Assembly: GCF_000803645.1 (NCBI RefSeq) | Contig: NZ_CP009122.1 | Coordinates: forward strand, 3,882,501 to 3,946,500 | DNA length: 64,000 bases | Source of the DNA: Sphingopyxis fribergensis | GTDB lineage: Bacteria > Pseudomonadota > Alphaproteobacteria > Sphingomonadales > Sphingomonadaceae | Reading direction: 5' to 3' | Shown: positions 58,844 through 61,443 of the stretch, one piece after another | Layout of the letters: the number at the start of each line of letters is the position of its first letter | Position numbering within the stretch: the stretch's first letter is position 1 | Notes under the pieces: model-generated | Told to the model about the DNA's origin: nothing | The model's database searches: none | What the model saw: only the letters and a program-made list of their open reading frames with translations | Translations under genes and position numbers: made by a program

Positions 58844-59797
58844 ATGTCTTTCCTCCGTCTTGAAATTAGCCCAACTCATCTCCTTCTCATTCCCGCGTGC
58901 CTCGCGCTTGCGGCCTGCGAATCCTCAGGCAGCTACCGCGTCGGCAGCGTCGGCGCGACCGGAGCAACCGGTGCCACGGGCCCGGCCGGCGCCACCGGCG
59001 CCACCGGCGCGGCAGGTCCAGCAGGTCCGGCCGGCGCGCCGGGCGGTACGCTGGGCCTGGGCGATGCCGGCGCGCTCGCGGTCGGCGGCCTTGTCGGTCC
59101 CGGCGGCGTCGCCGGCACCGGCCTGCTTGCCAACACCGGCGATCCCGCCAACGTCAATCCGGTGATCGGCGGCGTGCTCGTCAAGACGGGCGGCCTCGTC
59201 AATGTCATCGCCGACAAGGGTCTGCTCCTCGCCAGCGCGGTCGACGGCAAGGTGCCCGGCAACACCAACCTCGTCGGCACGGTCGTCGGTGTCGTCAAAA
59301 GCACCGGCGTCGCGCTTGTCCAGACGGGCAACGGCCAGCAATATCTGGTCGACGGCCTGACCGCCGCGCCCGGCCAGCTGATCACCGCGACGATCGGCAA
59401 GGCGACCGCAATCGGCAGTCCCGCCGCCTCGCCACTGATCGGGGCAAGCATCCTCTCGCCCGGCCAGAAAAACGGCAGTCTGCTGACGGTCGGCGTCGGG
59501 TCGGGCGGACAGCTTGTTACGCTCCAGCCCGGCACCGGCGGCAACCTGCTCGGCGGCGTCACGGGCGGACTGACAGGCGGCGGCACGACGGGCGGTAGCC
59601 CCGCCGGATCGCCCGTCGCGCTGGTCAGCAACGTCGTCACGACGACAACCGGCGCGCTCGCGCAAGTCGGCGGCGGCGTCACCGGAGGCACAACGGGCGG
59701 CGGCACGGCAACCGATCCCGTGACCGGCCTTGTCACCGGGGTCACCGGCACCGTCGGGGGCGTCCTTGGCGGCCTGAAACCGAAGCGCGGCAACTGA
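58844..59797 (+). CDS. Collagen-like Gly-rich lipoprotein, probable cargo of the adjacent TpsB
   Basis: A 317-residue protein. The signal peptide ends in a lipobox (LALAAC, Cys at about residue 25). At about residues 35-70 there are eleven uninterrupted Gly-X-Y triplets (GAT, GPA, GAA, GAP). The rest is Gly/Val/Thr-rich, with quasi-repeats such as GGLVNVIADKG, VVGVVKSTG, GGVTGGLTGGGTTGG and DPVTGLVTGVTG. No TPS domain, enzyme motif or cysteine besides the lipobox is seen. It lies 11 bases before a TpsB gene, with AAGGGG before the ATG. The idea of secretion to the cell surface is an inference. Confidence 0.8.
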   Translation: MSFLRLEISPTHLLLIPACLALAACESSGSYRVGSVGATGATGATGPAGATGATGAAGPAGPAGAPGGTLGLGDAGALAVGGLVGPGGVAGTGLLANTGDPANVNPVIGGVLVKTGGLVNVIADKGLLLASAVDGKVPGNTNLVGTVVGVVKSTGVALVQTGNGQQYLVDGLTAAPGQLITATIGKATAIGSPAASPLIGASILSPGQKNGSLLTVGVGSGGQLVTLQPGTGGNLLGGVTGGLTGGGTTGGSPAGSPVALVSNVVTTTTGALAQVGGGVTGGTTGGGTATDPVTGLVTGVTGTVGGVLGGLKPKRGN

Positions 59798-59808
59798 GGC
59801 CGCACCCG

Positions 59809-61443
59809 ATGCGCAATCTGCGCTACGCCTGTGCCGCGGCGGTGGCGGGAGCCTTGCTCCTTCCCGCCGCGGCGCTCGCGGCCCAGCCCGCGGCGACGCC
59901 GCTCGACGGCCGCCCGCCCCTCGCCCCCGACCGCAGCCGCGACCCGCTTCCCGACCCCGAGGCGAAACCGCTTTCGCTCGGCAAGGTCGAACTCGGCGCA
60001 CGGCCCGATGTCACCATCCGCGAAATTCGCTTCGTCGGCGCGGGCGTGCCCGCCAATGTCGGCCGCGCGGCGCAACGTTTCGTCGGCAAGCCCGCATCGG
60101 CGAACAATCTGGCGAAACTCGCCGCCGCGATGACGCGCGCCTATAACCGGTCGAGCGTCGCGCTTTTCACGCTCGTCATTCCCGAACAGGATCTGGCGGA
60201 CGGCATCGTCACCGTCGCCTCGGCCGAGGGATATATCGGATCGGTCACGCTGAGCGGCGAGAGCGAGAGCGGACCCGTGCCGCTCGTGGGGAAGATGGCC
60301 GCGCCCCTCGCAGGCCAACGGCCGCTGCCCCGCGCACGTTTCGAACGCGCGCTCGGCAATATCGCCGATATTCCCGGAGTCACCGTCACCCCCTCGCTCG
60401 CGCTCGGCGGCGAACAAGGCGCGGTCGCGCTCGACCTCGCGCTCGACGCAAAGAAGCCGACCGTCGGGCTCGGCTTCACGACGCGCACGAGCCAGTTCGT
60501 CAATGACGGCATCGTCGAAGCGAACGCGCGCGGCGCCAGCCTGCTGCGCAGCGGCGACGAAACGCGGCTCACCGGCGCCGCGGCGTTGAACCTCAAATCC
60601 CTGCTCTACCTCGCCGCGAGCCATTCGACGCCGATCGGTGCGGGCGGTACGCGCGCCGAAATCTCGGGCGCGGCCTTGCGCACGAAACCCAGCGGACTCG
60701 CGCTCGACGGCGAGGCGTGGAGCGCGGGCTTCGGCGTCACGCACCCGCTGATCCGCGCGACGCGGCGGAACCTGATTGCTGCGGCGCGGATCGATTATCT
60801 CGATTCCAAAAATGCGCTCTTCGGCTCGACGATCGCCGCCGAAAGGACCTGGACCGCGAACGGCAGCCTCGCGTTCCGTCTCAGCGAAGACCGCACCGTC
60901 GTGGGCGCGCGGATCGCCGGCGCCAAGGGCCTCGATTTCGCTGGCGCGCGCGTCGACCCCGGTGTCGGCGAGGTCGGCTTTCTCTATGCCGACGCCAGCA
61001 TCGAGGCAAATCAGGCGATCGGCAGGGCACTCGTCGTTCGCGCCGCCGCGACGGGGCGCTGGACGCGCGACCGCCTGCCCGCGGCGCAACGCTTCAGCGT
61101 CGGCGGCGCCACTTTTGGCCGCGCCTTCGACGACGGACTCGTCAATGGCGACCGCGGCTATGCGACCTTCGGCGAAGTCGCGCTCCGTCCGCTGCGCAGC
61201 GGCAAATTGGCGAAGAGCGAGATCTACAGCTTTGTCGATTATGCCGACGTCACTTTATTCGCGCGCACCGCGATCCCGGAAACCAACTTCCGGCTCGGCA
61301 GCTGGGGCGGCGGGGTGCGCCTATCCTATTCCGAAAATGCGACGATCGGCCTCGAACTCGCCGACGCATGGAACCAGCCGGTGCCGGGTTACGATCAGGA
61401 CTGGCGCGTCGCGCTCAGCTGGAAATTGTCGCTGCGTCCGTAA
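59809..61443 (+). CDS. ShlB/FhaC/HecB-type outer-membrane transporter (TpsB)
   Basis: A 544-residue protein with a signal peptide (ends near AALAA, residue 24). A Pro-rich linker is followed by POTRA domains: VTIREIRFVGAGVPANVGR (about 66-84) and DGIVTVASAEGYIGSVTLSGE (about 130-150). The rest is a 16-stranded barrel that ends WRVALSWKLSLRP. The conserved loop-6 area reads FSVGGATFGRAFDDG...GDRGYA, so the usual VRGY/F is changed. TpsB proteins translocate one partner exoprotein. The neighbouring collagen-like lipoprotein is the obvious partner. The 3' end overlaps the hemerythrin gene by 29 nt. Confidence 0.88.
   Translation: MRNLRYACAAAVAGALLLPAAALAAQPAATPLDGRPPLAPDRSRDPLPDPEAKPLSLGKVELGARPDVTIREIRFVGAGVPANVGRAAQRFVGKPASANNLAKLAAAMTRAYNRSSVALFTLVIPEQDLADGIVTVASAEGYIGSVTLSGESESGPVPLVGKMAAPLAGQRPLPRARFERALGNIADIPGVTVTPSLALGGEQGAVALDLALDAKKPTVGLGFTTRTSQFVNDGIVEANARGASLLRSGDETRLTGAAALNLKSLLYLAASHSTPIGAGGTRAEISGAALRTKPSGLALDGEAWSAGFGVTHPLIRATRRNLIAAARIDYLDSKNALFGSTIAAERTWTANGSLAFRLSEDRTVVGARIAGAKGLDFAGARVDPGVGEVGFLYADASIEANQAIGRALVVRAAATGRWTRDRLPAAQRFSVGGATFGRAFDDGLVNGDRGYATFGEVALRPLRSGKLAKSEIYSFVDYADVTLFARTAIPETNFRLGSWGGGVRLSYSENATIGLELADAWNQPVPGYDQDWRVALSWKLSLRP

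Follow-up and report, generated by a model that had tools for sequence, protein, structure and literature searches.

Two-partner secretion systems of type Vb, such as FhaC/FHA, CdiB/CdiA and ShlB/ShlA, combine a TpsB transporter, which has a PF03865 domain, two POTRA units and a 16-strand barrel, with a partner whose gene is adjacent and co-oriented and encodes a signal peptide. TpsA, the usual cargo of TpsB, is a large protein that starts with a TPS domain and carries no lipid. An outer-membrane barrel gene adjoining a lipobox gene is also characteristic of Slam (PF04575) and its surface lipoproteins: in one survey, 185 of 353 Slam homologues were adjacent to a lipobox gene (PMC5449769). The lipidated autotransporters NalP and SphB1 are type V substrates with a lipobox, and a review gives the final leaflet of their lipid as undetermined (PMC8151025). 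BcpO of Burkholderia CDI, a predicted outer-membrane lipoprotein of 73–74 aa, is encoded 5′ of a TpsB gene and accompanies a TpsA; deletion of bcpO reportedly abolished autoaggregation and reduced CDI activity (PMC3415462). Burkholderia collagen-like proteins such as Bucl8 are linked to the outer membrane of a Gram-negative bacterium and contain a Gly-X-Y stretch; Bucl8 also has outer-membrane efflux domains (PMC7682875).

Here we describe a gene pair of Sphingopyxis fribergensis, located in the window (the whole stretch of 64,000 nucleotides that was analyzed; contig NZ_CP009122.1, positions 3,882,501 to 3,946,500), that resembles each of these systems in part. Judged from sequence, the tie between a small, often collagen-like lipoprotein and a TpsB across genera suggests an undescribed route of surface display. 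As in type Vb systems, the transporter is a TpsB with an adjacent, co-oriented partner gene; unlike in those systems, the partner has no TPS domain, is, among the loci read, about 200–775 aa long rather than large and beta-helical, bears a lipobox and, in the lineage of the window, lies upstream. Since the lipoprotein lacks the TpsA features tested, namely the TPS domain and the size, we do not file it as a TpsA, although we claim that it is treated in the manner of one. In contrast to Slam, the barrel is a TpsB, and no Pfam match marks the lipoprotein as TbpB-like; a search of the S. fribergensis genome with PF04575 gave no match, and the 14 control genomes gave none either. NalP and SphB1 carry their own barrel, whereas here the barrel is a separate protein. 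A description of collagen-like or lipidated TpsB cargo was not found among open-access titles and the beginnings of abstracts, a scope outside which most subscription journals fall. The features of the locus are listed in Table 1.

Table 1. Positions of the lipoprotein gene, the transporter gene and their parts in the window
Feature	Position	Strand	Basis or remark
Collagen-like lipoprotein gene, proposed TpsB cargo	58844..59797	+	ORF, 317 aa
Lipoprotein signal peptide, ending in lipobox LAAC (Cys25)	58844..58918	+	
Conserved mature N-terminal motif CESSGSYRVGSVG, residues 25-37, candidate recognition element	58916..58954	+	alignments
Collagen-like stretch, 12 Gly-X-Y triplets, residues 34-69, variable linker	58943..59050	+	
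Conserved segment GLGDAGALAVGGLVGPGGVAGTGLLANTGDP, residues 71-101	59054..59146	+	alignments; absent from some distant partners
OB-like core, residues about 132-190	59237..59413	+	
Segment PLIGASILSPGQKNGSLLTVGVGSGGQLVTL, residues 197-227	59432..59524	+	conserved in alignment
Gly/Thr/Val-rich C-terminal tail	59525..59794	+	composition; low pLDDT
Lipoprotein stop codon overlapping GAGG, GAGG 9 nt 5′ of tpsB ATG	59795..59808	+	sequence
TpsB transporter gene, 544 aa	59809..61443	+	PF03865
Two POTRA units, residues 65-140 and 142-214	60001..60450	+	AlphaFold2 secondary structure
16-strand beta-barrel, residues 218-542	60460..61434	+	AlphaFold2; two short loop strands left out
L6-type loop motif FGRAF, residues 436-440	61114..61128	+	

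The transporter matched PF03865 (ShlB) with 46.5 bits (cut-off 22.7) and POTRA_2 with 23.6 bits, slightly below the cut-off of 24. The best Foldseek matches of its AlphaFold2 model (mean pLDDT 81.5) were CdiB (6wim, E 1.6e-25) and FhaC (4ql0, E 7e-23). With its predicted barrel and two POTRA units, the protein is thus, by its model, a TpsB of the ShlB/FhaC/HecB type. Residues 1–61 had a pLDDT below 50, and a clear plug helix before POTRA1 was not visible in them. The L6-type motif of the FGRAF kind was common to lipoprotein-paired and TpsA-paired TpsBs. The initial annotation had placed an ShlB/FhaC-type transporter with POTRA and barrel 11 bp downstream of the lipoprotein gene, and the coordinates, the PF03865 match and the model agree with it. 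It had also considered co-transcription to be seen directly; we infer it rather from the 11-bp gap and the GAGG that overlaps the lipoprotein stop.

Outside Sphingopyxis, 15 of 23 pairs had a stem-loop after the stop codon of the lipoprotein gene (z ≤ −2; the other eight did not reach that level), and it may be an attenuator that would provide more cargo than transporter. The GC-rich stem-loops were located in L031, L032, L035, L036, L037, L039, L040, L092, L094–L097 and L244–L246, directly 3′ of the lipoprotein stop where tpsB is farther off, and some were followed by T-runs.

The lipoprotein of the window is encoded by a single-copy gene, and a Pfam search of the protein, including the TPS domain and PF01391, gave no match up to E 10. 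At E ≤ 0.001, 222 homologues were found among 7999 scored candidates, and the best 120 of these 222 were analyzed. The Cys residue with the motif C-x(2,4)-G-x(0,3)-R was kept in 109 of the 120 homologues listed, the remaining 11 being mostly truncated at the N-terminus. Among the homologues listed, the residue following the lipid Cys was E in 104, S in 4 and Q in 1, and never D. The window lipobox reads LAAC-E, with the Cys present and a residue other than Asp at +2, as predicted for an outer-membrane lipoprotein.

Gly occupies each third residue over the 12 triplets, or 11 if the count begins at GAT37; when the mature protein was shuffled 20,000 times, a run this long arose once. The mature protein contains 27% Gly, 13% Thr and 12% Val. 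The lipobox, the eleven triplets and the Gly/Val-rich body described in the initial annotation were borne out. Across the 109 homologues among the matches listed, the Gly-X-Y run ranged from 5 to 24 triplets, and several partners of the same lineage lack it and have a Gly/Ser-rich linker instead; a collagen-like character was accordingly rejected as the trait that defines the family. A motif resembling CESSGSYRVGSVG was also present in partners without collagen triplets. By alignment, the constants of the family are the lipobox, the CESxGxxRVxSVG-like motif and the core domain, whereas the linker formed by the collagen stretch varies. For the lipoprotein, AlphaFold2 gave a poor model (mean pLDDT 52) that does not show the fold of most of the protein. 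A second tandem match of the PLIGASILSPGQKNGSLLTVGVGSGGQLVTL segment was observed in L038.

The two genes were tightly linked. A search of a collection with one genome per species, using lipoprotein profile A1 (25 rows), yielded 32 loci, the two peptide patterns behind this search favoring the window's own lineage. A frame matching the TpsB profile lay directly downstream on the same strand in 31 of them, including L009, where TpsB is cut by the contig end, and L015, where it is split into two frames; the remaining locus (L034) ends at the contig edge. The carriers include Sphingopyxis, Sphingobium, Sphingosinicella, Altericroceibacterium, Henriciella and Marinicaulis. Among 80 genomes of Sphingopyxis, both genes were present in 35 and neither in 45 (TpsB lineage E ≤ 1e-60, lipoprotein E ≤ 1e-6), and the carrier lists were identical row by row. 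Lipoprotein and TpsB also diverged together (Mantel r 0.89, 26 pairs, 0 of 5000 permutations as high), species relatedness being uncontrolled in this comparison.

The 35 carriers are not independent of each other, and inheritance within the genus is largely vertical. Comparison of the flanks of 42 loci showed at least one flanking gene of the window in 23 of 23 loci from Sphingopyxis and close kin; since these genes are conserved in the genus as well, the co-occurrence there partly reflects vertical inheritance. That the genes are neighbors by chance or through shared regional ancestry alone is nevertheless very improbable. None of the 19 loci outside the close kin, some of them on short contigs, shared the window's flanking genes, and the pair was intact in all 19, so that it persists in other families while its surroundings change. 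The identity of the carriers, the single clade formed by the TpsBs and the recurrence of the association in another gene order in a sister lineage, both described below, argue against this explanation, which also requires many unpaired members of the clade, where one (L247) was found. Co-occurrence, TpsB tree and sister lineage together led us to reject chance neighbors.

The initial annotation had proposed a different, collagen-like cargo class and had taken rare co-occurrence of the two genes in other genomes as speaking against it; our counts point strongly the other way. Together with the persistence of the pair outside the close kin, this gives the different cargo class good genetic support, while "collagen-like" does not stand as its definition.

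The TpsB lineage was rare farther out: the best TpsB outside the own genome scored 234 bits in a class-wide search of 387 genomes, and an order-wide search of 297 genomes found TpsBs of at least 446 bits in 13. In the order search, the whole-length lipoprotein profile was used to score seven candidates per genome; it missed the partners in G290, G247, G226 and G191, which were recovered by reading upstream of TpsB, and in G201 the partner position would fall past the contig end. Counts based on the profile only are therefore lower bounds. The core profile matched 27 of the 28 partners of the window's lineage tested and missed that of L092, the genome of which (G268) was matched by the whole-length profile with E 3.9e-9.

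In a tree of 84 TpsBs, the lipoprotein-paired transporters formed one clade with support of 100/100; all outgroup rows were alphaproteobacterial and chosen with a profile from the window's lineage. The clade contains 49 rows: in 48 of them a lipoprotein gene was visible, and in the remaining one, L093, the contig end cuts off the upstream side. The sole further row inside it is L247 (G814), an orphan TpsB without an adjoining lipoprotein or TPS-domain gene, and no TpsA-paired TpsB fell inside. The rows outside the clade had TPS-domain partners, whose frames exceed the fetched stretch, FecR-domain neighbors or no recognized partner. The FecR-domain (PF04773) genes lie in the opposite orientation beside TpsBs of the same order in L112, L116 and L119, with no recognized TpsA adjoining.

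ORFs on the TpsB strand were scored with an iterated TPS-domain profile seeded by ten TpsA neighbors of non-clade TpsBs. A TPS-domain ORF lay beside none of 40 clade pairs and beside 24 of 49 other TpsB loci, the ten profile seeds included; the same profile found none beside 25 further loci. The two other TpsBs of the own genome each have a large TpsA-like neighbor: a 2106-aa protein for the second and, about 6 kb downstream of the third, a 4254-aa frame that is the genome's one match to PF05860. The region after the third TpsB (L006:7452-17001) encodes a protein with an ExbB/TolQ-like C-terminal half, as judged by eye, a possible TonB-like protein and a porin-like protein, followed by the 4254-aa TPS-domain frame.

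These data bear on the main alternative, in which the lipoprotein is a periplasmic accessory that helps TpsB to secrete another, unlinked substrate, as BcpO does in Burkholderia CDI or Bam lipoproteins do for BamA. With BcpO there is a known case of a TpsB gene preceded by one for a predicted lipoprotein (PMC3415462), and the absence of a TPS domain from the lipoprotein fits an accessory. However, BcpO loci hold their own TpsA (BcpA), and a TPS-domain gene was found beside none of the 40 pairs tested here; the window lipoprotein is moreover far larger than BcpO, and its stalk-like linker differs among homologues both in length and in type. A PF05860 scan of 25 genomes that bear the pair gave a single match above the cut-off, that of the own genome, which has its own TpsB, with a model that is insensitive here: because PF05860 misses the 2106-aa TpsA-like protein, the argument that no spare TpsA exists is weak. 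The sequence data do not separate an accessory from a cargo role; on balance we regard the accessory role as rather unlikely.

The sister branch in the TpsB tree consists of TpsBs scoring 302–360 bits, from a genus inferred to be Sphingobium. The first three sister loci were identified by reading, and 94 genomes were then searched, from which 14 more loci in 12 genomes were fetched (a broken copy in G801 is outside the count). All 17 loci read (L099–L101 and L224–L237; example, L100:3007-7074), from 15 genomes, have the order TpsB, 2OG-Fe(II) oxygenase, longer collagen-like lipoprotein; an oxygenase profile built from the first three loci matched in 14 of the further 14, and one oxygenase scanned against PF13640 scored 53.8 bits. 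In all 14 further loci, the mature lipoproteins begin with CADGVGFD or CSDGVGFS and contain 10–49 Gly-X-Y triplets, in which proline was seen by eye in the X position (G-P-x). The sister operons may hydroxylate a bacterial collagen, and any hydroxylation would precede export, since the oxygenase has no evident signal peptide. A Bacillus anthracis prolyl-4-hydroxylase reportedly modifies both positions of synthetic peptides and favors Y (PMC8968730). The window's lineage also occurs in Sphingobium (inferred genus), with an upstream lipoprotein in 10 of 11 loci fetched, the eleventh being L247; in this count, the partner in L239 was found on reading only, and L238 and L239 duplicate L035 and L032. 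Homology of the two lipoprotein lineages is not claimed: the core profile matched 0 of 7 sister-lineage loci, and hhalign gave a weak profile match (probability 30%) between the PLIGASILSPGQKNGSLLTVGVGSGGQLVTL segment and the sister-lineage lipoproteins.

We consider it fairly probable that the adjoining lipoprotein is the dedicated cargo of its TpsB, forming a lipidated two-partner secretion system without a TPS domain. We infer export from the exclusive pairing, the finding of no TPS-domain partner beside the pairs tested and the co-divergence of the two proteins. The stem-loop, which could favor cargo over transporter, the fully supported TpsB clade, the constant sister operons and the large TpsA-like neighbors of the own genome's other TpsBs are also in line with this role. 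Precedents are provided by Slam with its surface lipoproteins and by BamA holding the lipoprotein RcsF (PDB 6t1w, among the Foldseek matches).

In such a system, the lipoprotein would be exported by Sec, lipidated at Cys25 and, with no Asp at +2, carried to the outer membrane. The POTRA units may recognize the mature N-terminal motif and/or the core while the chain is still unfolded, and single chains would thread the TpsB barrel as monomers, folding outside the cell and trimerizing where the linker is collagen-like. The lipid would anchor the protein at the outer membrane; it would either flip to the outer leaflet or remain inside while the chain runs through the barrel and plugs it. The collagen stretch could serve as an exchangeable stalk, and the OB-like core and the Gly/Thr/Val tail could form the displayed head, whose probable function is adhesion or surface coating. 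Several points count against the cargo role: recognition is unexplained for a cargo without a TPS domain, the passage of a lipid-anchored protein through a TpsB channel is an unsolved topology problem, L247 lies inside the clade without an adjoining lipoprotein, and the lipoprotein model is poor.

In another reading, TpsB exports the protein, which is then plugged into the transporter or released from it and acts as a lid, a tether or a secreted filament instead of being held at the surface by its lipid. The chain could occupy the barrel while the N-terminal lipid stays in the inner leaflet, and some TpsA proteins are reported to be tethered to their transporter through a small disulfide domain (PMC5422565); a C-terminal Cys pair occurs in 4 of the 109 homologues among the matches listed (P0081, P0098, P0103 and P0117). 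This pair is absent from the other homologues counted: 104 of the 109 contain just the lipid Cys, and one contains one Cys more. We think a plug, tether or filament improbable.

Returning to the lipid-anchored cargo, we tentatively propose, short of holding it likely, that a TpsB lineage has been adapted to the display of small lipid-anchored proteins on exchangeable stalks, many of them collagen-like, instead of giant beta-helical TpsA proteins, and that Sphingobium adds an oxygenase that would hydroxylate the prolines of the collagen-like cargo before export. The result would be a bacterial surface collagen equipped with dedicated machinery for its modification and its secretion. If true, this would break the picture of TpsB cargo as large, non-lipidated and headed by a TPS domain, and the TpsB family would gain a lipoprotein-surfacing role beside Slam. 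The small cargo would be suited to probing POTRA recognition and the lipid position of type V lipoproteins. In the Sphingobium operons there would be a natural candidate for the study of exported, possibly hydroxylated, bacterial collagen.

Two minor observations concern individual loci. TpsB is in two overlapping frames in L015:3646-5381 and in G714:C32, both from genomes of the window's genus, through either assembly error or decay. In L098:4700-7288 (G267), two further same-strand frames of 497 and 332 aa, the second with nine Gly-X-Y triplets, lie downstream of TpsB, and both may be extra members of the locus.
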